Source: Aurantiochytrium sp. KH105
Taxonomy: Eukaryota > Sar > Bigyra > Thraustochytrida > Thraustochytriidae
Assembly: GCA_003116975.1 (NCBI GenBank)
Contig: BGKB01000150.1
Span: forward strand, 101,152-165,151
Reading direction: 5' to 3'
DNA: 64,000 bases
Under the pieces are notes generated by a model. The model did no database searches. It saw only the letters and a program-made list of their open reading frames with translations, and was not told the DNA's origin. This document shows, piece by piece, positions 16,236 through 63,636 of this stretch (positions within the stretch are counted from its first letter, which is position 1; the number at the start of each line of letters is the position of its first letter). Position numbers and translations under genes: made by a program.

Positions 16236-19200
16236 ATGGCGCGTAGCTCGCAAGGTCGTGCAGAGGCCCTGGTCCACAATGTGCTCAAAGGGACAGAGAA
16301 GATCTTGCTCGATACTATCAACGGTCTTCGGCCCGTGCGAAACCAAGGCTGGTGCATCATGGCTCTCGTCGTTCAGGCCGTGCTTGTCAGTCTCGTTTGC
16401 CTTTTCTGGCTGTACCGTGTCACATACGCAAGTACGACGTCGCACCACGGAATCTTTGGCTGTGAGGCATCAAGCGATAATCTCGCTGGCAAGTCATTTC
16501 CCGAACTTGCGTGCGCGGCTCCCGTTGACGTTGTGTATACCTGGGTCAATGGCTCTGACCCGCGATGGTTGGAACAACTTCGATATTACCGCGAACAACA
16601 GCGCTTGCAGGACGAAGCCAGAGAAGAAACCTCGCCGAATGATGCCGAAAGTATTGGCGAAACTGTCACCAACGAGAGCGGCGAGGACCTCGGAGCCGCA
16701 ACCTCTTCCCTTCAGAATCTTCACGAGCAAATTGAGGACCTCGATGAAGCCATCCGAAAGGTGCAGCAAGAACAAGCGCATCCTGAAATGGATTCTCACG
16801 CGCATGAAACGCGAGCGACGCAAACGGCTGATTTCGAGGCCTCCTCAAACCTCCGGCCAAGTCGGTCTGCCCAAATTGGGGATCATAACGATGAAGGGCA
16901 TTTGAAGCAAAGGCTTCTGCTTGATGAGGACTCCGTCGCGAAGGGGCAATTCCGGAGAGGACTCCGCTACGGCGAGTCGTACGATGGCGATTTTGGTGCA
17001 TGGGATAGAGACGCAGATGCCTACTTGCAAGCAAGTCTTGACTACGACGAGCTCTTGCAACGGGAGTACATTGCAGTCGCAGCCAAAGAGAGAGAAGGGA
17101 GCGCAATATCGGAATACGACGACGACGGTACAGTCCAAGCAAATGGAGGCGACTTCTTTTCGGAAGACAAGCAGGAACCCAGCATTGAAGAGGCTTCGTC
17201 TGCAAATCGGTTTCGTGACAACGAAGAGCTGCGATTCTCCCTGCGCTCGCTTGAAAAATATGCGCCATGGGTGCGTCACATTTACATTGTTACAGACAAC
17301 CAAATTCCTTCGTGGCTTGACCTCAATCATCCACGCATGACTCTCGTGTCCCATGCAGACATTTTTGCCAACAAGTCACATTTACCGACGTTTAGTTCTC
17401 CCTCGATCGAGGCCAATCTTCACCGCATTCCGGGTCTCGGAGAGAACTTTATCTACTTTAACGACGACGTCATGCTCGGTGCGCCCGTGTGGCCGAGCGA
17501 CTTTCACGATCCTGCGCTTGGCCAGCGCATTTTTCTCGCATGGGCGCTTCCGCACTGCAGCGATGGATGCATTTCCAATTGGATCGGAGACAATTATTGC
17601 GATGCTGCCTGCAATGTTGCAGCATGCGACTTCGATGGCGGAGATTGTGAAGGCGAAAATGCCCAGATGCCAAATTGGGGAGATCCTGACATGCATGCTT
17701 TCGGCGGCATGGGCGCCGAGTTTGGCGAATTCGATAACAGCCAAGCGTACAGGGAAGAATGCAGTGATGGCTGCCGCAAAGAGTACCTTGCGGATGGCTT
17801 TTGCGACCGCGAGTGCGCTCATCCAGAATGTGGGTGGGATGGCGTCGACTGCTTTGAGCCAAGCGGTCCGCCAGCGCGCGCGATGCCTTTCGTCTTTGTC
17901 GATCCATTTCCCCTGGCAACGAACTTGGTGACTCCTATTGCGCTCCCTTTTGGCGTTCGCGCCGCGAGTCTCAATTTGTCGCATATTGAAAACGAACCTG
18001 AATTGACCATCGAGACCGCCACAGCGACGTCTGCATCCATTGTTACCAAAGCTACATTTCATCAGCCTACAAAGACTTTGAACCTCGTCTTTGCAAACCC
18101 TGGGGCTCCCACCGAGCATCATTTGGTGTGGGGAGGTACTTCGCTCGAGACTTTCGCCTTTGGTGAAAATGTGACCACGTTCTTTTCAGAGGTCAAACGT
18201 GATCAATATCTTGTTGGGGGCTGCGCGCCTGGCCTCGGGTGTGAACAATTTGAAAGTCTCGAGCTCGCCATGCAAATGTGTCTTGTCCGTGGATCTCTTT
18301 GTGGAGGCGTCACGAGCTCCAACCGCCACGCGCCGCCTGCGACATACGAGCTTCGAGCGGGATCTGGCCTTGCGCCCTCGTACACATACGAAGATTCGTG
18401 GCAACGGTCCGGTGACTTTGATGGCGCGTGTGCAGAGTCGTCTGCTGATCTTTCCGTCGACGTTGAGAAAGTGGCGGTGCACTTGAAAATGTCCGACGAA
18501 AGTGCATACTTTATCAACATTACAAGTTCGCTCCCTCTATGCGCCTTTGGCGCAGCCACCTCTGAGCGTTCATCTTCACAGCGCCGCGGTCTTGCCTCGT
18601 CGCTGCCAAGGCCAGAAGAGCGCCGTGTAACTACTCATGCTGCACAGTCGCCTGCAAATCTCACCTTTGCAGCAGCGCAGTACGTCAAGCAAGCTCGTCT
18701 CAAGCGGCAAATGCTCCTGCGCGTCAACGTATTTCGAGCGCACATTGACGATTCTCTGCAAAGCAGAGCTGCATGGCGTCCCGACCCTGAAAGCGACCGG
18801 GCGAATGCGTCGACGTCATCTGCATCAACACTCGATGCTTTCATGTCAGAAATGTCGAACGCATCAGAGACTGTCAGCGCCGCTCCTGAGGCATCCGCGG
18901 TCGATGCATTGCCGTCACGCGAGCGAAGAACGCTGATTGATACCTTTGGAGGATCTTTGCTGCATGTGAATAAGCTTTACACGGAAGTGTTTGGCAAAAG
19001 GGAGCGACGCGTCATTGCGCACATGCCTCATTTTATGCAAAAGACCCAAATTGAGGCCATGCAAGCTCGCTTTGCGGAGGAATTCGCGCGAACTTCGCAA
19101 AACAGGTTCCGAAGCACGGATGATATGCAATTCGCATTCGCGTACATGTACTGGATCGTGCACCAGGGGGATCAACCGCTGTTTCCGCCGCGTGAGTACT

Positions 19201-19994
19201 TTGACAAAGAGCTCGATACGGACGGCGACGGCGTCCTTTCCCCAAATGAGCTTATTACACTTGCGGCCATGCAAGTTGGAGGCGACGCCGGTCACCACTC
19301 CACGCGCGAGACGCTGTTGGCCATGGTCCGATGCGTCGATCCTACGATCCTAGGGCCACCCCATGACGCTTCGTCTTCAGCGGATGAGGACAGCGAGGGA
19401 GCTGACGATGATGAGGAGCTGCAGGAAGAAGCCATCGAAGACAACAAGGATGACCTTGTTCGCTTCACGTTTGAGCAGATTATGGCGTGCGAGCTGACGC
19501 GCGGGGCTCTTTTAGACAAGACTCCGCGCAAACAGACACATTCGATCATCAAGGAAGAGGACAGCCCGGTGGCATTCCAGATGCTCGGCGACGACTTTGT
19601 GGACGTGGCTTCACAGCTAGACTCGATTCGAGCGCGCAAACCAAAGTTTATATGCGTCAATGACAACATGAATCATCCATCCATGGAGGTCCTGCAAGAG
19701 CTGCGCAACTTTCAACTCGCGCTATTCCCGCAAAAGTCCTCCTTTGAGCTGCCGCTGAATCGCCGCAACCGCTTCTTGTACATGGACGAGTACCATTCTC
19801 ATCTCTTTTATTACAACCTTTACGCGCGCGCAACATACGCGTTGATTATCCTTGTCATCTGCGTGTATTTTTGTCCGTGCTTTGAGGAAGTTCCGGCCCA
19901 GAATGCTGACTCTGCACAACGCAGAGATGAGAATGACGTGCGAGCAGATGTCGAGGGCGACCCTGAGATGGTTGCATCTTCTAAAGAACAGTGA
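16236..19994 (+). CDS. GNPTAB: GNPTAB-like GlcNAc-1-phosphotransferase (Stealth family) with LNR and EF-hand
   Basis: 1252 residues, the size of human GNPTAB. In animals this Golgi enzyme adds GlcNAc-1-phosphate to mannose of lysosomal enzymes, starting the mannose-6-phosphate tag. Order seen: N-terminal membrane anchor (about 42-61, MALVVQAVLVSLVCLFWLY); Stealth CR1 (about 97-115, DVVYTWVNGSDPRW); Stealth CR2 (from about 325, NEELRFSLRSLEKYAPWVRH, later IYFNDDVMLG); two LNR/Notch-type Cys modules (about 442-475 and 508-540); Stealth CR3 (HMPHFMQKTQIEAMQ); a canonical EF-hand loop DTDGDGVLSPNEL (about 994); Stealth CR4 (from about 1138, CVNDNMNHPS); C-terminal membrane anchor (about 1199-1215). 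A spacer between CR1 and CR2 is long and acidic. Whether it makes mannose-6-phosphate signals or another phosphosugar cannot be told from sequence. Confidence 0.93.
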   Translation: MARSSQGRAEALVHNVLKGTEKILLDTINGLRPVRNQGWCIMALVVQAVLVSLVCLFWLYRVTYASTTSHHGIFGCEASSDNLAGKSFPELACAAPVDVVYTWVNGSDPRWLEQLRYYREQQRLQDEAREETSPNDAESIGETVTNESGEDLGAATSSLQNLHEQIEDLDEAIRKVQQEQAHPEMDSHAHETRATQTADFEASSNLRPSRSAQIGDHNDEGHLKQRLLLDEDSVAKGQFRRGLRYGESYDGDFGAWDRDADAYLQASLDYDELLQREYIAVAAKEREGSAISEYDDDGTVQANGGDFFSEDKQEPSIEEASSANRFRDNEELRFSLRSLEKYAPWVRHIYIVTDNQIPSWLDLNHPRMTLVSHADIFANKSHLPTFSSPSIEANLHRIPGLGENFIYFNDDVMLGAPVWPSDFHDPALGQRIFLAWALPHCSDGCISNWIGDNYCDAACNVAACDFDGGDCEGENAQMPNWGDPDMHAFGGMGAEFGEFDNSQAYREECSDGCRKEYLADGFCDRECAHPECGWDGVDCFEPSGPPARAMPFVFVDPFPLATNLVTPIALPFGVRAASLNLSHIENEPELTIETATATSASIVTKATFHQPTKTLNLVFANPGAPTEHHLVWGGTSLETFAFGENVTTFFSEVKRDQYLVGGCAPGLGCEQFESLELAMQMCLVRGSLCGGVTSSNRHAPPATYELRAGSGLAPSYTYEDSWQRSGDFDGACAESSADLSVDVEKVAVHLKMSDESAYFINITSSLPLCAFGAATSERSSSQRRGLASSLPRPEERRVTTHAAQSPANLTFAAAQYVKQARLKRQMLLRVNVFRAHIDDSLQSRAAWRPDPESDRANASTSSASTLDAFMSEMSNASETVSAAPEASAVDALPSRERRTLIDTFGGSLLHVNKLYTEVFGKRERRVIAHMPHFMQKTQIEAMQARFAEEFARTSQNRFRSTDDMQFAFAYMYWIVHQGDQPLFPPREYFDKELDTDGDGVLSPNELITLAAMQVGGDAGHHSTRETLLAMVRCVDPTILGPPHDASSSADEDSEGADDDEELQEEAIEDNKDDLVRFTFEQIMACELTRGALLDKTPRKQTHSIIKEEDSPVAFQMLGDDFVDVASQLDSIRARKPKFICVNDNMNHPSMEVLQELRNFQLALFPQKSSFELPLNRRNRFLYMDEYHSHLFYYNLYARATYALIILVICVYFCPCFEEVPAQNADSAQRRDENDVRADVEGDPEMVASSKEQ

Positions 19995-33330: not shown

Positions 33331-36300
33331 ATGATGCGATCAACGGCGTACTTTGTGGACCTGGGCGAACAACATCAACAACAGCAACAGCAACAGCAGC
33401 ACAAGCAGCGGCTCGCGTCAATGAAGATGAACGAGCCTGCTAACCCGCTCACAGAGCGCAAGCCCGGCACGCCGACCAAGGCGCGCGGAAACAACAACTG
33501 CTCCATCGACGCTGGCGAAGAAAACAAGACGCAGGCGTGCAACCAGCTCGCAGAAGGTCCTCTCATGGTCAAGAGCATGAACGGTGCGGGCAAACCGCAG
33601 CTCCCAGAACGCCTCCAGAAGCGGCTGGCCTCGCTGCCAGGGCGACCAAGCGCAGAACAAATCCGACAAAAGGAAGAGCAGGTCGAGATGAAGCGCGAGG
33701 AAATGCTCAAGGCCAAAGTCATGGGCGCAGCACAATTCGGGGCCAAGGTCCAAGAAGTGCGCGCGCGCAAAGATGAGTTTAACAGGAACATTTTGGGCTG
33801 CTGCGGCGCCAGCGCCGGGGCAGCCCAGCCCAGCGCGCCCCCCGCTCCCGTCAAGCTACCGGGCCGGCTGCAAAAGCGCCTGCGCAACCTCAAGGCGGCG
33901 TCTGCGGCCCGAGCCAAGCCGGTGCTCGAAAAGGAGGCCCAGACGGCCGCACGCCGCGAAGCTAGACTTCGCGCCGTCGCGGACAAGCAAGCCGCGCATC
34001 TCGCGACCGTCGCTGCGCGCAAGGAGGCCAAGGCCACCGAAGCAAGATTCGAGGCGGCCTCCGCGCCAGACTTTTTGCCCGCCAATCTTAAGGCAAGACT
34101 TGAAAGTCTCCGACGCCCGACCAAGGAAGCGATTCTGCGCAAAGAAGCATTGGCAGAAGCCAAGCATCGCCTTGTGCTCGAGGCCAAGGCCAAGCGTGCC
34201 AGCGATCACATGGTCGTTGTTGAGCAGGCCCGGGCAACAAAGAAGGCCTTTGTTGCAAATGAGGTCGACTTTGGGTCAGCAAATCCTGGCGCTTCCGCTG
34301 TGGGTGTGAAGCTTCCCAAACGTCTTGCTCTTCGCGCTGAGCGTCTGGCTCCCAAGTGGACCCCGGACTCGGTCGTTGCCTCGCATGAAGGTGCCGCGGC
34401 GCGCCAGCGCGAGCTGATGGAGATGAAGATGGCGAAAGCCCGCGCCCACCTGACCCAGGTGTCCAAGCTGCGCGAGGCGAAAACCACCGAGGCGCGCTTT
34501 CCAGAATTCAATGAAGCCAGCAGCGCAGCGGAACCGGCGGCGGCGGCGGGGGTCGACGCTGCCTCGGTGCAGCTGCCCGAGCGGCTTCGTGCGCGGCTGG
34601 CAGCCTTCACCAGACCGACCAAGGAAGCCTTGCTGCGCAAGGAGGCTCTCGCCGCCAAGCGCGCAGAGCTGCACACAGCCGCCAAGGCCCAGGCGGCCCG
34701 TGTCCACAACGAAATAGCCGTACCGCGCGCACGCGCTCTCAAGGAAAGTCTCGAGAGCAACAACATCCTCTTGGCCACGAGCGCTGACACCAAGCTTGCC
34801 ACGCCTGTCGCGCTTCCGAAGCGACTCGCCAAGAGGCTTGTCATGCTGCGAGCAGGTAAACCGGCCTGGACCTCGGAGGCCCAGCTCGCCAAGGAGGCCG
34901 CTGCCGAGCAGCGTCGTCGTGATATGCTCGAGGGTGTGATGGCCGGTGCCGCCGAGCACAGCGCCAAGGTCGCTAAGCTGAGCGCCAATAAGAAGCTCGA
35001 GCCGCGCTTCGGCAACAACAAGATTCCCGCTGGTCTCCCGGAAAATCTGCGCACCCGCCTCGAAGGTGCTCGTCGGCGCACGCCAGAGGCCATTTTGCGC
35101 AAAAACGAACTCGCCAGCGTACGGCGCTCCGTCGCCCTCGCCGCGCGTGCGCACATTGCGCACCAGCGAGGTGAGGCTGCCCGTGCCGCTGTGGCTCTCA
35201 AGCACAGCATGGCTGAGACCGGCATGGAGCTCGCTAGCGGGCAGGTGGCGACGGCCACGCCGCTCCCGCGCGCTCTGGCGCGGCGCGCCGCCAAGCTCGC
35301 GCCCCGCTGGACGCCCGAGGGCCTCGTAGGCAAGGAGGCCGCCGCGGGCGATACCCTGCGTGCGTCGCTGGCGGCCAAGGCTGCCAAGGCTCGCAAGCAC
35401 AACCGTCTTGCGGCCTCGCGCGCGGCTGCCAAGGCCCGGGAGCCCCGTTTTGCGGCAGAGGCCGCGGCCCCAGAGCTGCCCGAGCACCTTCGCTCGCGTC
35501 TGGCGTCGCTGACGCGACCGCGTCCCGAGGCAATTCGCCGCAAGCTGGCCGCGGCCTCGCAGCGTCGCGAGATCCGACTGGAGTCGCTGCGCCACCGCGC
35601 GCGCGAGGCCGCCCCTGCCCGCGAGCGCGCGCGCGCGCTGCACGCAGACCTCGAGCAGAACCAGGTCTGGATTGTGCGCGGGTCCCCAGAGCCGTTGAAG
35701 CTCCCAAAGAGACTCGCTGCACGTGCCGAGAGCTTGGCATCGCAGGCCCAGGCGCGCGGCGGCGAGGCGTCGCTGCGGCGCGAAGAGGCCGCTGCGGCGC
35801 GGCGCGAGGCGCTACTTCGCGCGCGACGGACTGCGGCGCGCACGCACGTGCGTCGGGCCATGGCACGGCGGCAGGCCAAGGAGACCGAGGCGAGGTTTCC
35901 CGAGGGAGCGCCTGCCGGCGTGGAGCTGCCGGCGGCTCTGGCAGCACGGCTGGCGGCTCTGCGCAAGCCCACGGATGCTGCCGTGCTGCGCAAGCTGGAA
36001 CTGGCGGCGAAGCGGGCCCAGCTTGCTCGCGAGGCCAAGGCTCATGCGGCCAGCATGCACCTGGCGCACGCTGCCAAGGTGCGCCAGGTGCGTGACACGT
36101 ACCGGGACTCGATGCAGCTTCTGACCAAGGGAGAGACGGTTGCCGTGGCGCTCCCGAAGCGCCTTCGAGCGCGTCTTGCTTCGCTCGAGGCGGCCAAGAA
36201 ATCTCCGTCTGCGCTCTTGGCCAAGGAAGCCGCCGCTGGGGCGCGGCGTCACGAGCTGCTCGCTGCGCGCTGCGACAAGCTCGCGGCGCACGCTGCCAAG

Positions 36301-36801
36301 GTGCGCGAGGTCTGGACGTTGCGCAAGACCAAGCCTCGTTTCGCAGAGGAGGATATCTCGAGCGCGCCGTTGCCGAAGCGACTCAAGGAGCGTCTCAAGA
36401 CGTATCGTAGTCCCACGGGCGATGTCATTCGCAACAAGGAGGCACGTGCCCAGCAGCGCCGCCAGAGCAAGTTGGCGGCAAAAGCAAAATCTGCGCACTC
36501 GCACCAGGAGTACGTTTTGCAGGTCAAGGCGCTCAAGCAGGAGTTCGTCGCGAACCAGGTATCCTTTGCACCTGATGATCGGGACGAGTCGCCATCGCTG
36601 CCGGCCTCGCTGCAGAGCAAGCTTGACAAGCGTTCTTCGCCCAAGTCTGCCGAGCAGATTCGCGAGAAGGAGACTGCCGTGCAGAACCAGCGGGACGCCA
36701 TTTTGCACGATCGTGTGCATGCGCGTCAGCTTCATTCGCAAAAGGTCGATGAGATTCTCCAGAAGCATCGCGAGCAGGCTGCCAAGCCGGAGACCGACTG
36801 A
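33331..36801 (+). CDS. Protein of fourteen alternating A/B helical repeats, function unknown (stathmin-like pattern)
   Basis: About 1156 residues from the ATG at 33331 (MMRSTAYFVDLGEQH); upstream in-frame sequence to 33079 looks like leader. After a poly-Gln tract and a short disordered N-terminus, residues about 91-1150 are 14 tandem modules, each opening with LPxxLxxRL and averaging 77 residues. Odd modules (A) carry RPTxEAIxRKxxLA and end near ExN.V.; even modules (B) carry WTxExxxxKEAAA or similar and close with the tripeptide (P/A)RF. The order A-B is kept through all seven pairs. Each module is predicted to be a long, strongly basic helix with I..KE..A..RR...L..K spacing, which resembles the tubulin-binding repeats of stathmins. 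I infer, weakly, a cytoskeletal (microtubule) role. Codon use is C-ending and biased, as in well-expressed neighbours. Confidence 0.85.
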   Translation: MMRSTAYFVDLGEQHQQQQQQQQHKQRLASMKMNEPANPLTERKPGTPTKARGNNNCSIDAGEENKTQACNQLAEGPLMVKSMNGAGKPQLPERLQKRLASLPGRPSAEQIRQKEEQVEMKREEMLKAKVMGAAQFGAKVQEVRARKDEFNRNILGCCGASAGAAQPSAPPAPVKLPGRLQKRLRNLKAASAARAKPVLEKEAQTAARREARLRAVADKQAAHLATVAARKEAKATEARFEAASAPDFLPANLKARLESLRRPTKEAILRKEALAEAKHRLVLEAKAKRASDHMVVVEQARATKKAFVANEVDFGSANPGASAVGVKLPKRLALRAERLAPKWTPDSVVASHEGAAARQRELMEMKMAKARAHLTQVSKLREAKTTEARFPEFNEASSAAEPAAAAGVDAASVQLPERLRARLAAFTRPTKEALLRKEALAAKRAELHTAAKAQAARVHNEIAVPRARALKESLESNNILLATSADTKLATPVALPKRLAKRLVMLRAGKPAWTSEAQLAKEAAAEQRRRDMLEGVMAGAAEHSAKVAKLSANKKLEPRFGNNKIPAGLPENLRTRLEGARRRTPEAILRKNELASVRRSVALAARAHIAHQRGEAARAAVALKHSMAETGMELASGQVATATPLPRALARRAAKLAPRWTPEGLVGKEAAAGDTLRASLAAKAAKARKHNRLAASRAAAKAREPRFAAEAAAPELPEHLRSRLASLTRPRPEAIRRKLAAASQRREIRLESLRHRAREAAPARERARALHADLEQNQVWIVRGSPEPLKLPKRLAARAESLASQAQARGGEASLRREEAAAARREALLRARRTAARTHVRRAMARRQAKETEARFPEGAPAGVELPAALAARLAALRKPTDAAVLRKLELAAKRAQLAREAKAHAASMHLAHAAKVRQVRDTYRDSMQLLTKGETVAVALPKRLRARLASLEAAKKSPSALLAKEAAAGARRHELLAARCDKLAAHAAKVREVWTLRKTKPRFAEEDISSAPLPKRLKERLKTYRSPTGDVIRNKEARAQQRRQSKLAAKAKSAHSHQEYVLQVKALKQEFVANQVSFAPDDRDESPSLPASLQSKLDKRSSPKSAEQIREKETAVQNQRDAILHDRVHARQLHSQKVDEILQKHREQAAKPETD

Positions 36802-37052: not shown

Positions 37053-37112
37053 AGCAGTGCAGAGCAGTGCAGAGCAGTGCAGAGCAGTGCAGAGCAGTGC
37101 AGTGCAGAGCAG
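37053..37112. repeat. 10-bp minisatellite, unit GCAGAGCAGT
   Basis: About five tandem copies of the decamer GCAGAGCAGT, the last degenerate. Confidence 0.9.
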
Positions 37113-37556: not shown

Positions 37557-37790
37557 TGGCATTGCATTGCATTGCATTTCATTACAAGTTGCACTACAAC
37601 GTGATGCAGTTCGGAACAATCCGATCCGATGCGATGCGATGCGATGCTGGTCGACCACCCGTTCCGAGTCGTTGGCTGCGGAGACCAGTCCCCCGGACCT
37701 CGCCGCGCCGTAACGCCATGTAATGCAATTCACCGCAATGCAATGCAATGCAGTGCCATGCAATGCAATGCAATTCATCGCGATGCGGTG
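37557..37790. repeat. Cluster of related pentanucleotide repeats GCATT / GATGC / GCAAT
   Basis: GCATT units at about 37558-37580, GATGC units at about 37626-37645 and GCAAT units at about 37735-37773. GCATT and GCAAT are near complements, so the flanks can pair as an imperfect inverted repeat around a roughly 160-bp centre. Confidence 0.7.
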
Positions 37791-41694: not shown

Positions 41695-44600
41695 ATGTGG
41701 AGCGTCAAGAGCGCCCGCAGCGTGGCGGCCTCCAAGGCCGCCGTCAGGCAGCTCTCCTCGTCCGCGAGCAAGGGCACCTCTGACCTCAGCAAGCCCGCTG
41801 CCGCCCGCGGCTTTGTAGGCTCCAGCATGGGCAGCGGCGGCGTCCGCACCGCCACCCTCGCGCTCGAGGATGGCTCCCGCTTCACCGCCATGTCCTTTGG
41901 CCACGAGGAAAGCGTTGCCGGCGAGGTCGTCTTCAACACCGCCATGGTCGGCTACCCCGAGGCCCTCACCGATCCCTCGTACCGCGGCCAGATCCTCGTC
42001 AGCACCTACCCCCTCGTCGGTAACTACGGTGTCCCCGACAAGGGCGTCGTCGACGAGTTCGGCCTCCCCAAGCACTTTGAGAGCGACCAGATCCACGCCG
42101 GCGGCTTCCTCGTCAGCGACTACTCGCACCACTTTAGCAACTGGGAGTCCGGCCGCAGCCTCAGCTCCTGGCTCCGTGAGGAAAAGGTCCCCGGCCTTTA
42201 CGGTATCGATACCCGTCTTCTCACCAAGAAGATCCGCGAGCACGGCAGCATGAAGGGCAAGATCGAGTTCGAGCCTGCCTACAAGCCCCCTGGCCACAGC
42301 GAGATCGAGTTCGTCGACGTCAACGCGCGCAACCTCATCCAGGAGGTCTCCTGCACTGACCGCATCGTGTACGGTGCTGGCAACCCCGTCAAGCTCCTCG
42401 CCCTTGACTGCGGTATCAAGAACAACATCATCCGCAACCTCGTCCGCCGCGGCGTCGAGCTCCACCGCGTCCCGCATGACTTTCCCTTTGCCGAGCACGT
42501 GCACGAGTTCGACGGTCTCTTCCTCAGTAACGGCCCCGGTGATCCCATCATGGCCACCGAGGCCGTCGCCAACCTCCGCAAGGTCCTCGAGAGCGGCTTC
42601 GACAAGCCCATCTTTGGTATCTGCATGGGTAACCAGCTCACCGCTCTCGCCGCTGGCGCCGAGACCTACAAGATGAGCTTTGGTAACCGTGGTGTCAACC
42701 AGCCTGTGCTCAACCTGCGCACTGGCCAGTGCTTCATCACGCCCCAGAACCACGGCTACGCCATCCGCACCGAGACCCTCTCGGAGGACTGGGAGCCCCT
42801 CTTTGTCAACCGCAACGACGGCACCAACGAGGGTATCATGCACAAGACCAAGCCCTACTTTACGGCCCAGTTCCACCCGGAGGCCAAGGGTGGTCCCACC
42901 GACACGGAGTTCCTCTTTGACGACTTTGTCAACATGGTCCGCGACGGCAAGTCCTCCGTTGGCGCCGTCTTTGACGCGCGCAAGGTCCCCGACACCCGCG
43001 TTGAGGCCAAGAAGGTTCTCCTTCTCGGCTCCGGTGGTCTTTCCATCGGCCAGGCCGGCGAGTTCGATTACTCTGGCAACCAGGCCATCAAGTCTCTCAA
43101 GGAGGAGGGCATCGAGACGGTCCTTATGAACCCTAACATTGCCTCGGTGCAGACCAACCTCGAGGGCGCCAACCAAGCCGACACCGTCTACTTCTTGCCC
43201 GTCACCATGGACTTTGTCGAGGAGGTCATCGCCCGCGAAAAGCCCGACGGCCTCATCCTCTCCATGGGTGGCCAGACCGCCCTCAACGTCGGTGTTGAGC
43301 TCTACGAGAAGGGTATCCTCACTAAATACGACGTCAAGGTCATGGGTACCTCGGTCGAGTCCATTATCGCCACCGAGGATCGCGGCATCTTCTCGGACAA
43401 GCTCAACGAGATCAACGAGAAGCTCGCCCCGTCCTTCGCCGTCAACACCATCGACGATGCTGTCGTCGCTGCCCACAAGGTCGGCTTCCCCTGCATGATC
43501 CGCAGTGCCTTTGCCCTTGGTGGCCTTGGCTCCGGCATTTGCAAGGACGAAGCCCACCTTCGCGAGATGGCCCGCAAGGCCTTCTCCACCTCGCCCCAAA
43601 TCCTCGTCGAGAAGTCGATGCTCGGCTGGAAGGAGGTCGAGTACGAGGTCGTGCGCGATGCCGCTGATAACTGCATCACCGTGTGTAACATGGAGAACTT
43701 TGATCCCCTCGGTATCCACACCGGTGACTCGATCGTCGTTGCCCCCTCGCAGACGCTCTCCAACCACGACTACCAGATGCTCCGCGACACCGCCATCAAG
43801 ACGGTCAAGCACCTCGGCATCATTGGCGAGTGCAACATCCAGTACGCTCTCGACCCCCACAGCGACGACTACGCCATTATCGAAGTCAACCCCCGTCTCT
43901 CGCGCTCCTCGGCTCTTGCCAGCAAGGCCACCGGTTACCCGCTCGCCTTTGTGGCTGCCAAGCTCTCGCTCGGCATCCAGCTTCCGGACATCACCAACCA
44001 GGTCACCAAGCGCACCACTGCCTGCTTTGAGCCTTCCCTCGATTACGTCGTCACCAAGATCCCCCGCTGGGATATGACCAAGTTCGACCTTGTCTCGCGC
44101 AAGATCGGCTCTGCCATGAAGTCCGTCGGTGAGGTCATGGGTATTGGCCGCTCCTGGGAGGAGTCCCTTCAGAAGGCTATGCGCATGGTCGACCCCTCTA
44201 TCGAGGGCTTCCAGCCGCACAAGCACATGTACCTGCCGCCCTCTTCGGAGGCCGAGCTCATTGAGGAGCTCGAGCAGCCTTCGGATGTCCGCCCCTACGC
44301 CATTGCCCACGCCATGATGGACCGCGGCTGGTCCGTCGACCGTGTCAACCAGCATACCGCCATTGACACTTGGTTCCTCCACAAGCTTCAGCGCCTGTGC
44401 CAGCTCGACCAGCTCATGACCGAGGCCGGCTCGCTCGACCGCCTCAACTCCACCCTCCTCCTCCAGGCCAAGAAGTCCGGTTTCTCGGATCGCCAGATCG
44501 CCGAACGTATCAACTCTGAGGAGCTCCTCGTCCGCGACCGCCGCAAGATGTTCGGCATTGTCCCCGTTGTGAAGCAGATCGATACCGTTGCCGGCGAGGC

Positions 44601-46275
44601 CCCCGCTGCCACCAACTACCTCTACACCACCTACAACGGTGACGAGTCCGACGTTAGCTTTGACGACCACGGCACCATGGTTCTCGGCTCTGGTGTCTAC
44701 CGCATTGGCTCCAGTGTCGAGTTCGATTGGTGCTCCGTGTCGGCTATCCGCACCCTGCGCAAGCTTGGCAAGAAGAGCGTCATGGTCAACTACAACCCCG
44801 AAACCGTCTCGACTGACTTTGATGAGTGCGACAAGCTCTACTTTGAGGAGCTCTCGCTCGAGCGCGTCCTCGACATTTACGAGCTCGAGGGCTGCGAGCA
44901 GGCCATTGTCTCCGTCGGTGGTCAGCTGCCCAACAACATTGCCCTCCAGATGCACAACTACGGCACCCAGATCGCTGGTACTTCGCCGCTCATGATTGAC
45001 TCCGCCGAGGATCGCGACAAGTTCTCGAGCGTCTGCGACAAGTTCGACATTGACCAGCCCTCGTGGTCCCGCCTCACCACCCCGGAGGATGCCTTTGACT
45101 TTGCCGACAAGGTTGGCTACCCCGTGCTCGTGCGCCCCAGCTACGTGCTTTCCGGTGCTGCCATGAGTGTCGCCTACAACGCTGCCGAGCTCTCCAAGAA
45201 CCTCCAGCGCGCTGGCGAGGTCAGCCGCGACCACCCCGTTGTGCTTACCGCTTTTATTGAGAACGCCCGCGAGATCGATGTCGACGCTGTCGCTCGCGAC
45301 GGTGAAGTTATTGCCCACGCCATCTCGGAGCACGTTGAGAACGCCGGTGTGCACTCCGGTGACGCCCACCTCATGCTCCCGCCCCAGACTCTCAGCGAGG
45401 AGGTCCTCGAGAAGTGCCGTGAGACCACGCGCCGCATCGCCAAGGCCTTCAACATCACTGGCCCCTTCAACCAGCAGCTTATCGCCAGCCCTGACGGCTC
45501 GGTGAAGATCATCGAGGCCAACATCCGTGCCTCGCGCTCTTTCCCGTTCTCGTCCAAGACTGTCGGTGCTGACTTCATCGAGATTGCCACCACCGCCATG
45601 GTCGGCGCCGGTGAGCCCGACTGGCTCGCCAGCAAGGACCTTGGTCTCGGCGGCAAGGGCGCCACCCCGACCACCTACGTGGGCACCAAGGTCCCGCAGT
45701 TCTCCTTCAAGCGTCTTGCTGGCGCTGACCCCAAGCTCGGCGTCGAGATGGCTTCCACCGGTGAGGTCGCTTGCTACGGCAAGGACGTGCACGAGGCCTT
45801 CCTCAAGTCCACCCTTTCCACCCTTGCGTACACCCTGCCGGAGCGCAAGAACATCCTCGTCTCCATCCAGGACCGCCTCCAGGAGGACTTCAAGCCCAGC
45901 CTCCGCAACCTCGTCGAGGCCGGCTACACCATCTTTGCCACTGAGAAGACTGCGCGCTTTTGCGAGGCCAACGACATTCCCGTCACCGAGCTCCACTGGG
46001 AGGAGAGCGGCCAGGTCCCCTGCCTCGACACCTTCGTCCAGGAGGGCGAGGTCGACCAGGTCTGGATGTTCTCTAACAACGAGTCGCTCCGCACGGAGAC
46101 CAACTACAAGGTCCGCCGTCTGGCAATTGACTACGGCACCCAGCTCGTCACCAACGCCCAGGTTGCCGCCATGCTCTCCGAGTGCTACCTCAAGATTGAG
46201 AAGGGCGAGCTGAACATGGAGCCCCTTACGCTCAAGGAGTACTACGAGGCCGAGGCCCAGGCCCGTGGTCTTTAA
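41695..46275 (+). CDS. CPS: Glutamine-dependent carbamoyl-phosphate synthetase, fused small and large subunits, mitochondrial
   Basis: 1526 residues. N-terminal Ala/Ser/Arg/Lys-rich transit peptide (about 1-45). Small-subunit region follows with amidotransferase triad Cys310 (FGICMGNQL), His394 and Glu396 (QFHPEA), so glutamine can be used. The large-subunit region (from about 435, KVLLLGSGGLSIGQAGEFDY) contains two ATP-grasp halves, then an allosteric MGS-like domain at the C-terminus. No ATCase or DHOase domain is attached, so this is the arginine/urea-cycle type (CPS III-like) rather than the pyrimidine CAD enzyme. The C-terminal domain keeps FATEKT, LHWEES and SNNES...TNYKVRR, matching the human CPS1 positions that bind N-acetylglutamate (Thr1391, Thr1394, Trp1410, Asn1437, Asn1449). 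Very strong C-ending codon bias. Confidence 0.96.
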   Translation: MWSVKSARSVAASKAAVRQLSSSASKGTSDLSKPAAARGFVGSSMGSGGVRTATLALEDGSRFTAMSFGHEESVAGEVVFNTAMVGYPEALTDPSYRGQILVSTYPLVGNYGVPDKGVVDEFGLPKHFESDQIHAGGFLVSDYSHHFSNWESGRSLSSWLREEKVPGLYGIDTRLLTKKIREHGSMKGKIEFEPAYKPPGHSEIEFVDVNARNLIQEVSCTDRIVYGAGNPVKLLALDCGIKNNIIRNLVRRGVELHRVPHDFPFAEHVHEFDGLFLSNGPGDPIMATEAVANLRKVLESGFDKPIFGICMGNQLTALAAGAETYKMSFGNRGVNQPVLNLRTGQCFITPQNHGYAIRTETLSEDWEPLFVNRNDGTNEGIMHKTKPYFTAQFHPEAKGGPTDTEFLFDDFVNMVRDGKSSVGAVFDARKVPDTRVEAKKVLLLGSGGLSIGQAGEFDYSGNQAIKSLKEEGIETVLMNPNIASVQTNLEGANQADTVYFLPVTMDFVEEVIAREKPDGLILSMGGQTALNVGVELYEKGILTKYDVKVMGTSVESIIATEDRGIFSDKLNEINEKLAPSFAVNTIDDAVVAAHKVGFPCMIRSAFALGGLGSGICKDEAHLREMARKAFSTSPQILVEKSMLGWKEVEYEVVRDAADNCITVCNMENFDPLGIHTGDSIVVAPSQTLSNHDYQMLRDTAIKTVKHLGIIGECNIQYALDPHSDDYAIIEVNPRLSRSSALASKATGYPLAFVAAKLSLGIQLPDITNQVTKRTTACFEPSLDYVVTKIPRWDMTKFDLVSRKIGSAMKSVGEVMGIGRSWEESLQKAMRMVDPSIEGFQPHKHMYLPPSSEAELIEELEQPSDVRPYAIAHAMMDRGWSVDRVNQHTAIDTWFLHKLQRLCQLDQLMTEAGSLDRLNSTLLLQAKKSGFSDRQIAERINSEELLVRDRRKMFGIVPVVKQIDTVAGEAPAATNYLYTTYNGDESDVSFDDHGTMVLGSGVYRIGSSVEFDWCSVSAIRTLRKLGKKSVMVNYNPETVSTDFDECDKLYFEELSLERVLDIYELEGCEQAIVSVGGQLPNNIALQMHNYGTQIAGTSPLMIDSAEDRDKFSSVCDKFDIDQPSWSRLTTPEDAFDFADKVGYPVLVRPSYVLSGAAMSVAYNAAELSKNLQRAGEVSRDHPVVLTAFIENAREIDVDAVARDGEVIAHAISEHVENAGVHSGDAHLMLPPQTLSEEVLEKCRETTRRIAKAFNITGPFNQQLIASPDGSVKIIEANIRASRSFPFSSKTVGADFIEIATTAMVGAGEPDWLASKDLGLGGKGATPTTYVGTKVPQFSFKRLAGADPKLGVEMASTGEVACYGKDVHEAFLKSTLSTLAYTLPERKNILVSIQDRLQEDFKPSLRNLVEAGYTIFATEKTARFCEANDIPVTELHWEESGQVPCLDTFVQEGEVDQVWMFSNNESLRTETNYKVRRLAIDYGTQLVTNAQVAAMLSECYLKIEKGELNMEPLTLKEYYEAEAQARGL

Positions 46276-61050: not shown

Positions 61051-63636
61051 ATGAAGACCATGCTGAGACGCGGCGCGAGCGCGGCGGCGCGGCGCGCGGC
61101 GGCGACGCCCACGGCCGCACAGGTGCAGATGCAGCGGCGCACGCTCGTGGCAAGGAGCCTCCGCCCCGCCACGCGCAAGGAGAACCAGCTGCAGCGGCTC
61201 CAGCAGCGGCTCCGCGCCTCGGGCGCACAAGCCATGGCCAAGCGCGGCTTCGCCTCGCGCGCCGTCAAGAAGGAGGTCATCCCCGAGATCCTCCGCGCAG
61301 TCTCCAACACGGAAGAGGTCGAGTACTACCTCGACAGGTTTAGCGACTTCGAGGGCTCCGCCTTTGCCGTCATCAAGGTTGGCGGCGATGTCGTCGAGTA
61401 CGAGCTCGACACCCTCGTCCAGACCTGCTCCATCCTCTACAAGGCCGGCCTCAAGCCCGTCGTCATCCATGGCGGCGGCCCCCAGATGAACGATGAGCTC
61501 GCCCGCAAGGGCGTCGAGCCCCAGTACATCAACGGCAGCCGCGTCACCGACGAGGCCACCCTTGAGGTTGCCCAGCGCATCTTCACCGAGCTCAACGAGC
61601 GCGTTGTCAAGCGCATGCAGCAGGCCGGCATCAACGCCAAGGCCTTCCCCACGGGCGTCTTCCGCGCCGAGGTCGACAAGCCCGAGCTCGGATTCGTCGG
61701 CGCCGTCAAGGGCGTCAACGACGGCGATATCAAGCAGGCCCTCGAGGAGAACGTTGTCCCCGTTCTCACCTCCCTCGGCACCTCCGGTGACGGCCAGGTT
61801 CTCAACATCAACGCCGACGTCGCCGCTCGCGACCTTGTCCACACCCTCCAGCCCATGCGCGTCATGTTCGCCAGCTCCAAGGGCGGCTGGCTCGACGACG
61901 ACACTGGCAAGGTCGTCAACATTATTGACATGGCCAACGAGTACGAGATGCTCGCTTCCAAGGACTACGAGGGCCGCCAAGGCACGCTCCTCAAGCTCAA
62001 CGAGATCAAGCGCATCCTCGACGGCGTCCCCAGCTCCACCGCTGTCGCCATCACCGGCGCCGACACTATGGTCCGCGAACTCTTCACTCACGCTGGTGCG
62101 GGCACTCTCTTTACCACTGGTATCCCCGTTCAGCGCATTGAGGGCGACGCGTCCACCCCGCTCCTCTCCCCGCTCCCCAAGGGTGATGCCGTCGTCGAGG
62201 CCACCTACATCTACGGCCCCTCTGCCGACAAGCCGTACTGCGCGGGCCGCATCGTCCGTCTCCCCAAGCTCGGTGCCGATCTGCCCCCCGTCCTCAACGA
62301 GATTGTGCTCTCCCCCCAGCACCACGGCAACGGCTACGAGCATGTGCTCTGGAAGTGCATGCAGCGCGACTTCCCCAGCCTCGCCTGGACCTGGACCGTC
62401 GAGGAGGCAAAGCAGGGCTCCCTCAAGGCCGGATCTTCCGCCGCCGATGGCACCCTCTGCCACTGGGCCAGCGACTCCAACGTTGCTTGGTACAACCGCG
62501 GCCACCCCCTCAAGGGCTGGTCCGCCGAGAAGGCCCCGCGCCTGGTCATTGACCCGCCTGAGACCAAGGCCGTCAAGTACGCCCACGAGTACACCCCGAA
62601 CGCCAACCCTGTCAAGGTCGGTCTTCTCGGTGCCCGCGGATACGTCGGCCGCGAGTTCGTCAAGCTTCTCACCGACCACCCCAACATGGAGCTCACCGTC
62701 GCCAGCTCCCGCGCGCTCTCTGGCCAGCGCGTCATTGACTGCTTCGGCCTCGACAAGACCGCCGCCGTCCGTGGTGTCGCCGACACTCTGCGCTTCAACG
62801 CGCTCGAGCCCGAGGACCTCGCCGAGGACGACGCCGCGCGGGAGGTCGACATTTGGGTCCTGGCACTCCCCAACGGCCTTGCCCCCAAGTTTGTCGACGC
62901 CCTCGAGAAGTTCGCCCCGGATTCGACCATGATCGACCTCGGCGCTGACTACCGCTTTGACGACTCCTGGGTCTACGGTCTTCCCGAGCGACCAGGCGCG
63001 CGCGAGGCCCTCAAGGGCGCCAAGCGCATCTCCAACCCCGGCTGCTACGCCTCTGCACTTCAGCTTGCCCTTATGCCCATCATCCAGCCCATGTCTGGCG
63101 GCCTTCTCAAGCTCCAGAGCGGCACTGTGCCCAGCTCCTTTGGTGTCTCGGGCTTTTCTGGCGCCGGCACCAACCCCAGCGACAAGAACGACCCCCAGGT
63201 TCTCAAGGACAACATCATCCCTTACTCGCTGGTCTCCCACATGCACGAGCGCGAGTGCACCAAGCACCTCGGCTCCCAGGTTGCCTTTATGCCCCATGTC
63301 GCCTCGTGGTTTCAGGGCATTCACATGACCTCCACCGTCCACATTGAGCCTACCCAGGGCGGCAACTACCCCTCCACGGATGAGATCCGCGCCGAGTTCC
63401 AGGAGTACTACAAGGACGAGCCCCTCGTCAAGGTGACCAAGGAGGCGCCTACCGTTCGCGACAACATGTTCCGCCACCACGGTGCTGTTGGCGGCTTCAC
63501 GCTCGACCAGGAGACTGGCCGTCTCGTTGTCGTCTCCACCGTTGACAACCTCAACCTCGGTGCTGCCACTCACTGCACGCAGAACCTCAACATTGCCTTT
63601 GGCTTTGATGAGCTCGCCGGTATTGACCTCGACTAA
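61051..63636 (+). CDS. ARG5,6: Bifunctional acetylglutamate kinase / N-acetyl-gamma-glutamyl-phosphate reductase (Arg5,6 type)
   Basis: 861 residues. Two consecutive arginine-synthesis steps in one mitochondrial polyprotein: phosphorylation of N-acetylglutamate and NADPH reduction of the product. Arg/Ala-rich transit peptide (about 1-70, with LRRGASAAARRAAATPTAAQ near the start). Kinase domain (about 85-355): VIKVGGDVVE, VIHGGGPQMND, NINADVAARD and KGGWLDD. A DUF619/GNAT-like domain follows (about 355-505), as in fungal Arg5,6. Reductase domain (about 530-861): GARGYVGREFVKLL, SNPGCYASALQL with catalytic Cys665, and GIHMT with His758. In yeast the precursor is cleaved between the two enzymes; the linker here (about 505-530) could play that part. 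Codon bias equals that of the carbamoyl-phosphate synthetase gene. Confidence 0.96.
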   Translation: MKTMLRRGASAAARRAAATPTAAQVQMQRRTLVARSLRPATRKENQLQRLQQRLRASGAQAMAKRGFASRAVKKEVIPEILRAVSNTEEVEYYLDRFSDFEGSAFAVIKVGGDVVEYELDTLVQTCSILYKAGLKPVVIHGGGPQMNDELARKGVEPQYINGSRVTDEATLEVAQRIFTELNERVVKRMQQAGINAKAFPTGVFRAEVDKPELGFVGAVKGVNDGDIKQALEENVVPVLTSLGTSGDGQVLNINADVAARDLVHTLQPMRVMFASSKGGWLDDDTGKVVNIIDMANEYEMLASKDYEGRQGTLLKLNEIKRILDGVPSSTAVAITGADTMVRELFTHAGAGTLFTTGIPVQRIEGDASTPLLSPLPKGDAVVEATYIYGPSADKPYCAGRIVRLPKLGADLPPVLNEIVLSPQHHGNGYEHVLWKCMQRDFPSLAWTWTVEEAKQGSLKAGSSAADGTLCHWASDSNVAWYNRGHPLKGWSAEKAPRLVIDPPETKAVKYAHEYTPNANPVKVGLLGARGYVGREFVKLLTDHPNMELTVASSRALSGQRVIDCFGLDKTAAVRGVADTLRFNALEPEDLAEDDAAREVDIWVLALPNGLAPKFVDALEKFAPDSTMIDLGADYRFDDSWVYGLPERPGAREALKGAKRISNPGCYASALQLALMPIIQPMSGGLLKLQSGTVPSSFGVSGFSGAGTNPSDKNDPQVLKDNIIPYSLVSHMHERECTKHLGSQVAFMPHVASWFQGIHMTSTVHIEPTQGGNYPSTDEIRAEFQEYYKDEPLVKVTKEAPTVRDNMFRHHGAVGGFTLDQETGRLVVVSTVDNLNLGAATHCTQNLNIAFGFDELAGIDLD

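Follow-up and report, generated by a model that had tools for sequence, protein, structure and literature searches.

A fourteen-module helical repeat protein of Aurantiochytrium with partial likeness to the tubulin-binding repeats of stathmin

The window analyzed here, a stretch of 64,000 nucleotides from contig BGKB01000150.1 of the thraustochytrid Aurantiochytrium sp. KH105 (assembly GCA_003116975.1, positions 101,152 to 165,151 of the forward strand), contains a gene for a basic protein of 1156 residues that is built from 14 related modules. We estimate at just short of an even chance that its product is a multivalent stathmin-like tubulin- or microtubule-binding protein. This proposal is based on structure prediction and on sequence comparison, in which the likeness of the modules to the stathmin repeats is statistically supported but partial, and by these tests the protein is not a member of the stathmin family. 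The gene itself is real and is conserved between the haplotypes; it occupies a single locus within the range of the searches made and has no convincing Pfam family. A first-pass annotation of the same DNA had described strictly alternating A and B modules and a possible stathmin-like function; its repeat observation is real on the whole, with motifs looser than it stated, and its stathmin interpretation appears partly supported by the comparisons described below.

Gene and module architecture

The gene lies on the forward strand at 33331..36801 and consists of one coding frame of 1156 codons plus a stop, for which no intron is needed. The surrounding frame is open from 33055, and the start is the ATG ATG at 33331. 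An open frame of 551 residues on the opposite strand (34206-35861) lies within the gene and is probably a mere effect of its composition. The motif LPxxL occurs 14 times in the translated frame, at residues 91 to 1090, and each occurrence opens one module, in agreement with the module number first proposed; the modules fill residues 91-1156 and measure 67-87 residues, slightly longer than the approximate 65-85 claimed. The features of the gene, all on the forward strand, are as follows.

33331..33600 (+), N-terminal 90 residues: non-repeated, with a stretch rich in Gln and a net charge of +3
33601..33855 (+), module 1: divergent, with the longer tail of the A type; long helix at residues 108-157 in the AlphaFold2 model
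33856..34074 (+), module 2 (B type): AlphaFold2 helix at residues 178-236, with the opener merged into it
34075..34311 (+), module 3 (A type): long AlphaFold2 helix at residues 265-310
34312..34572 (+), module 4 (B type): long AlphaFold2 helix at residues 345-386; its stathmin register, at rank 8 of 85 offsets, is the weakest
34573..34812 (+), module 5 (A type)
34813..35034 (+), module 6 (B type)
35035..35262 (+), module 7 (A type)
35263..35475 (+), module 8 (B type)
35476..35700 (+), module 9 (A type)
35701..35925 (+), module 10 (B type)
35926..36150 (+), module 11 (A type): short AlphaFold2 helix at residues 868-876 and a 51-residue helix at residues 882-932
36151..36369 (+), module 12 (B type): AlphaFold2 opener helix at residues 943-955 and a 42-residue helix at residues 959-1000
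36370..36597 (+), module 13 (A type)
36598..36798 (+), module 14: divergent, closing the array; RF end absent

The alignment of the 14 modules gives the consensus LPxRLxxRLxxLxxPTxEAxLxKEAxAxxRRxxxLxAKAxxAxxHxxxVxxxRAxK. The opener had been described as LPxxLxxRL; its LPxxL part is invariant, position 8 is Arg in 13 modules and Lys in module 14, and position 9 is Leu in 11 modules and Ala in modules 4, 8, and 10. The longer motifs assigned to the two module types are also more variable than proposed. RPTxEAIxRK is exact in module 3 alone among the odd modules, although its Lys is present in all seven, and KEAAA is exact in three of the seven even modules (6, 8, and 12). The (P/A)RF ending of the even modules survives as an RF near the end of six of them and is absent from module 14. 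A tail longer by four residues (FVAN-type) is found in all seven odd modules and in no even module.

Clustering of the modules, performed throughout on alignment columns 1-63, supports the alternation of A and B modules for modules 2-13 and departs from the claimed unbroken pattern at the two ends. Complete linkage with three groups yields the order 1-2-3-2-3-2-3-2-3-2-3-2-3-1, in which modules 1 and 14 form a group of their own. Neither linkage returns the odd/even split when only two groups are cut (average linkage sets module 14 alone; complete linkage sets module 1 with 14), and average linkage with four groups keeps the odd modules 3-13 together, divides the even modules into 4, 8, and 10 versus 2, 6, and 12 with module 1, and again leaves module 14 alone. 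Of the 1716 equal bipartitions, no more than two (by identity) or three (by BLOSUM score), the odd/even split itself included, do as well as that split, and the nearest neighbor has the same parity in 11 of the 14 modules, the exceptions being modules 1, 6, and 14. Given this clustering, the odd-module tail, and the even-module RF pattern, the array may be either a run of six B-A pairs flanked by divergent end modules or one of seven A-B pairs whose ends have drifted.

A search of the organism's own genome (76.0 megabases in 367 contigs) reveals a second copy of the gene on contig C80, which encodes 1157 residues owing to one extra codon and retains all 14 modules. An adjoining gene is also duplicated nearby on C80 with the order conserved, and we therefore consider the two copies most likely to be alleles. 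Pairing of genes on different contigs, with equal or near-equal scores, is seen for C150/C80, C5/C21, and C43/C193, as expected of a diploid, haplotype-separated assembly. That both copies have 14 modules speaks against a collapsed or expanded assembly, the artefact which the first-pass annotation had named as a possible source of error in the module count. The copies differ at 68 aligned nucleotides, distributed over codon positions 1, 2, and 3 as 10, 0, and 58; there are 54 synonymous nucleotide differences versus 13 nonsynonymous codon differences, and the L, P, and L of the openers are untouched. The nonsynonymous and synonymous divergences (dN 0.0053, dS 0.064) give a dN/dS of 0.08 between the haplotype copies, and the gene is under purifying selection.

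Likeness to the stathmin repeats

A profile of the 14 modules searched against 177,635 distinct Protein Data Bank (PDB) sequences, with matches considered up to an expectation value (E) of 10, finds five matches, of which the top two are stathmin constructs: 9f07_C, Stathmin-4 (E 0.0013), and 4f6r_C, the R1 form of the stathmin-like domain (SLD-R1; E 0.0073). These are followed by two spectrin chains (E 1 and 2) and a heme-binding protein (E 4.7). The odd-module profile matches the same two stathmin constructs (E 0.017 and 0.019) and nothing else. Scored directly with the 14-module profile, the R1 chimaera reaches 19.2 bits, compared with maxima of 11.7 in 300 column permutations and 9.2 in 300 heptad permutations and with -0.8 for the reversed profile. 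For natural proteins, we used as comparison sequences four vertebrate stathmins (STMN1, STMN2, STMN3, and RB3); with the same profile, full-length STMN2 scores 10.6 bits (reached by 0 of 300 column and 0 of 300 heptad permutations) and STMN1 7.5 bits (3 and 0). The odd-module profile gives 18.2 bits for the chimaera (0 and 0 of 300), 8.4 for RB3 (1 and 0), 5.8 for STMN3 (18 and 10), 4.7 for STMN1 (7 and 7), and 1.8 for STMN2 (60 and 50). When the eight natural repeats are cut singly, their scores sum to 67.3 with the 14-module profile, a value that none of 400 permuted and none of 400 heptad-permuted profiles reach, to 57.6 with the odd-module profile (1 and 0 of 400), and to 75.7 with a profile of modules 2-13 (0 and 0 of 400). 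With each profile, seven of the eight natural repeats align in a common register, which the nulls equal in 0 to 3 of 400 cases; the repeat that departs from it is STMN3 repeat 1.

The register is also recovered in a gap-free scan, in which 40-residue module segments were slid over the four stathmins at 85 offsets. Stathmin repeats have a period of 51 residues, and the two repeats lie in one continuous helix. For all modules, the best offset is 51, corresponding to repeat 2 (score 20.8), and the second is 0, corresponding to repeat 1 (7.6), with a mean over offsets of -13.5 and a standard deviation of 8.6; one of 1000 column permutations matches the best score. The odd modules score 24.1 and 12.9 (no permutation of 1000 as high) and the even modules 17.4 at offset 51 (7 of 1000 as high). 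Because the two stathmin repeats are themselves alike, the top two offsets are 51 apart in 66 of 1000 permuted profiles as well; we therefore give little weight to the pairing by itself and more to the score. Offset 51 ranks first for 11 of the 14 modules taken singly, second for module 3, third for module 14 (for which repeat 1 is first), and eighth for module 4. Reversed profiles score 5.2 (all modules), 4.8 (odd), and 13.0 (even). Permutations restricted to helical phase, with periods of 7, 11, and 18, reach the best score in 0, 39, and 1 of 1000 cases for all modules, in 0, 28, and 4 for the odd modules, and in 11, 160, and 1 for the even modules; the period-11 null, with three or four columns per class, departs little from the actual order. 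Part of the stathmin signal may nonetheless come from an 11-residue helical rhythm common to both. The signs for end modules 1 and 14 conflict, as their gap-free score of 27.2 is the highest of the groups tried (16.8 when reversed) but their profile gives only 6.2 bits on the R1 chimaera.

AlphaFold2 models are available for six of the 14 modules (1-4, 11, and 12), and each contains one helix of 42-59 residues, a length near the stathmin period of 51, with breaks between modules and an undefined placement of the helices relative to one another. The model of pair 11-12, made from seven aligned pairs, has a mean predicted local distance difference test score (pLDDT) of 83.0 and a predicted template modeling score (pTM) of 0.33, with helices of 51 and 42 residues and short opener helices. 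The model of modules 1-4, made from four rows that are imperfectly aligned at the end, has a pLDDT of 75.2 and a pTM of 0.29, with helices of 50, 59, 46, and 42 residues, that of module 2 being fused to its opener. Neither a globular nor a solenoid fold, which the first-pass annotation had named as evidence against its proposal, appears in these models. We regard the helix prediction as permissive evidence because helices of such composition are easily predicted to be long. An α-helix rises 1.5 angstroms per residue and a tubulin dimer is about 80 angstroms long, and a helix of 51 residues, at about 76 angstroms, is close to the length of one dimer. A Foldseek search with the pair 11-12 model was uninformative, with one match at E 9.1.

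Several results weigh against a stathmin relationship. The top PDB matches are engineered chimaeras, matched over a stretch in which the beginning of repeat 1 is fused to the last part of repeat 2, and the other 20 of the 22 distinct PDB stathmin sequences are not matched by the 14-module profile within E 10. The four natural stathmins obtain E values of 26, 300, 450, and 1300 when scaled to a search of PDB size, and with the 14-module profile STMN3 (4.6 bits; 24 column and 33 heptad permutations of 300) and RB3 (4.9 bits; 16 and 15) are poorly separated from their nulls. No stathmin is among the PDB matches of the even-module profile, which are four betaine-homocysteine methyltransferase chains (E 0.19-0.29), and repeat 1 is outside the top six gap-free offsets of the even modules. 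Against the period-11 nulls, at 39 of 1000 for all modules and 160 of 1000 for the even modules, the gap-free score is marginal. The Pfam Stathmin family (PF00836) is not matched up to E 10 by the whole protein, the 14 single modules, or three hand-made consensus modules, in scans whose HMMER filters drop most weak matches; these scans return single weak matches only, the best being Ribosomal_L29 on one module (E 0.0067). The Pfam stathmin model finds nothing in the organism's own genome among seven candidates, although the control genomes are likewise silent. An hhalign comparison of the modules with the four stathmins yields a probability of 1.7% (P value 0.029, in the repeat 2 register), and in the reverse search, made with a profile of the eight vertebrate stathmin repeats, the modules average -0.93 bits and shuffled modules -0.51. 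Among the 34 positions conserved in at least five of the 14 modules, 7 are shared with STMN1 repeat 1, 10 with repeat 2, and 11 with the chimaera. The modules are related to one another and so are not independent evidence. Finally, the protein has an isoelectric point of 10.9 and a net charge of +105, compared with 5.8 and -4 for STMN1, and a reading of residues 1-90 reveals no stathmin-type cap. The resemblance that had been proposed is upheld by the top PDB matches and the register of the natural repeats and fails in the Pfam, hhalign, and reverse searches.

Proposed tubulin binding and competing explanations

The serious rival is a structural protein of long straight α-helices joined by short hinges, such as a cytoskeletal or flagellar-root scaffold, which would not bind tubulin and would owe its stathmin likeness to the Ala/Glu/Arg composition of its helices and an 11-residue periodicity. 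We hold this explanation to be possible, if below an even chance. It accounts well for the frequency with which permutation within the 11-residue phase attains the observed score (39 of 1000), for the weak Pfam and hhalign results and the negative reverse search, and for AlphaFold2 models that consist of free long helices with pTM values as low as 0.33 and 0.29. It accounts poorly for the whole-column and period-7 permutations, which attain the best gap-free score in 1 and 0 of 1000 cases, for the drop from 20.8 to 5.2 when the profile is reversed, and for a PDB search that places stathmin first and spectrin behind it at E 1. The high charge, spread over modules that are each basic at +2 to +10, would also suit an Ala/Arg-rich protein that binds an acidic surface, whether nucleic acid, membrane, or the acidic tails of tubulin, without a stathmin-like site; we consider this improbable, as charge alone explains neither the fixed positions within the modules nor their register with the stathmin repeats.

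Two known motif families were also compared with the array, and membership in either is not supported, as the protein has no Pfam profile match to it. The RPT-x-E-A-I of the odd modules resembles the RPxxxEL of RPEL motifs, with the same spacing from RP to the hydrophobic residue as in RPEL motifs, such that the odd modules could be degenerate RPEL motifs binding G-actin. We regard this as very improbable, as RPEL (PF02755) is not among the Pfam families matched, the odd-profile PDB search returns no RPEL peptide, and the model, which finds another gene on C5/C21 over its cut-off, finds the present gene in none of 13 candidates scored. That other gene, at C5:484340-484819 with a second copy on C21, has a frame of 511 residues in which one RPEL motif exceeds the cut-off and two or three more are weaker, and it likely encodes an actin-binding RPEL protein. 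TPX2 is described as having nine helical repeats of about 50 residues in a region that microtubule nucleation requires (PMC5080731). The C-terminal repeats of TPX2, a microtubule protein, resemble the present array in being helical and in tandem. A TPX2-like array of microtubule-nucleating repeats is nonetheless the reading to which we give the least credence, since the TPX2 model (PF06886) identifies a separate TPX2 on C43 and C193 (E 2.4e-16 and 3.3e-16), finds the present gene in none of four candidates scored, and is not among the Pfam families matched. The success of the RPEL and TPX2 models on other genes indicates that this genome is amenable to searches by family.

Weighed together with these alternatives, a protein that works like a multi-site stathmin remains the likeliest interpretation, with odds that are roughly even. 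Each module has a short opener, LPxxLxx[R/K], followed by some 40 conserved residues, and these conserved stretches together fit the stathmin repeat register. We posit that each long helix lies along one α-β tubulin dimer on its outer surface, as in the engineered one-tubulin stathmin, and that the linkers would permit the 14 helices to contact as many as 14 dimers, which may lie along one protofilament or across several. The A and B modules may represent a single type of binding helix in two versions, with linkers that alternate accordingly. The first-pass annotation had assigned one A-B pair to each dimer and up to seven dimers to the protein; the match to the one-tubulin construct R1 spans about 45 residues, which is the helix of a single module, and one module per dimer therefore fits better. 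One report mentions a complex in which a modified stathmin-like domain holds one tubulin (PMC4919923), and another indicates that stathmin-like domains bind the tubulin face that forms the microtubule outside and that their N-terminal β-hairpin cap contacts the longitudinal surface of α-tubulin (PMC6408325). We would expect the protein to gather or bridge tubulin and microtubules, or to bind the lattice, rather than to sequester tubulin, because no stathmin-type cap is seen and every module is basic.

The comparison with natural stathmins (STMN1-4 and the RB3 stathmin-like domain) indicates both the extent and the limits of this analogy. The modules and stathmin appear to share the pattern P-S/T-x-E-x-I..K..A..R-R to a V-R..K end in a gap-free alignment of about 40 residues that holds the register of both natural repeats. 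In contrast to stathmin, the present protein has 14 modules rather than two, a period of 67-87 rather than 51 residues, and Pro-Leu openers and linkers that part its modules instead of one continuous helix; it is also very basic, has no visible cap, lacks a Pfam match, and shows low identity at conserved positions. The engineered R1 constructs (4f6r_C and 9f07_C) are the top PDB matches and align without gaps over about 45 residues, as one module helix would; unlike the present protein, they are man-made single units that bear the N-terminal part of stathmin. The engineered multi-site R4 (4f61_I) differs in that its stathmin repeats form a longer chain, which no Pro-Leu interrupts.

A more specific proposal, which we regard as rather unlikely, is that the protein is a natural tubulin ruler outside animals, in which 14 single-dimer stathmin-like helices of two alternating variants template or bundle protofilaments and do not sequester tubulin. 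Such a ruler would be a natural counterpart of the engineered multi-tubulin stathmins. If tubulin is bound as we suggest, the stathmin binding mode would extend beyond sequestering proteins with two sites, the number of dimers held together could be fixed by one chain, and nucleating, measuring, or bundling of microtubules by cap-less stathmin-type helices would become directly testable. The protein might also be of use as a multivalent scaffold in structural work on tubulin. Among the literature titles and abstract openings consulted, a set that excludes most subscription papers, no title concerns stathmin in protists.

Relatives and other genes of the window

No paralogue is present in the organism's own genome among the matches listed (three matches of 25 candidates for the whole protein; 30 of 30 for the consensus module). 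The consensus-module search gives at least 30 rows, of which 26 lie within the two haplotype copies. The rows on C9 and C35 belong by eye to an ArfGAP-like protein, the row on C144 to a coiled-coil-like frame, and the fourth remaining row lies on C203. Locus L003 is a weak own-genome match (E 0.9). Whole-protein searches, which are sensitive to close relatives only, confirmed none of 53 pattern stretches in viral contigs and none of 170 stretches in prokaryote genomes.

Downstream of the gene are short tandem arrays at 37053-37112 and 37714-37786 (AGCAGTGCAG; AATGC-type). Three other genes of the window, all on the forward strand, encode recognizable proteins. The gene at 16236-19991 encodes a Stealth-domain protein with two LNR/Notch repeats, which is N-acetylglucosamine (GlcNAc)-phosphotransferase-like. 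The gene at 41695-46272 is intronless and encodes a carbamoyl-phosphate synthase whose glutamine amidotransferase and synthase domains are on one chain. At 61051-63633, one frame combines an amino-acid kinase, a partial N-acetyltransferase (NAT) match, and semialdehyde dehydrogenase domains, and is presumably an ARG5,6-like fusion of the arginine pathway.

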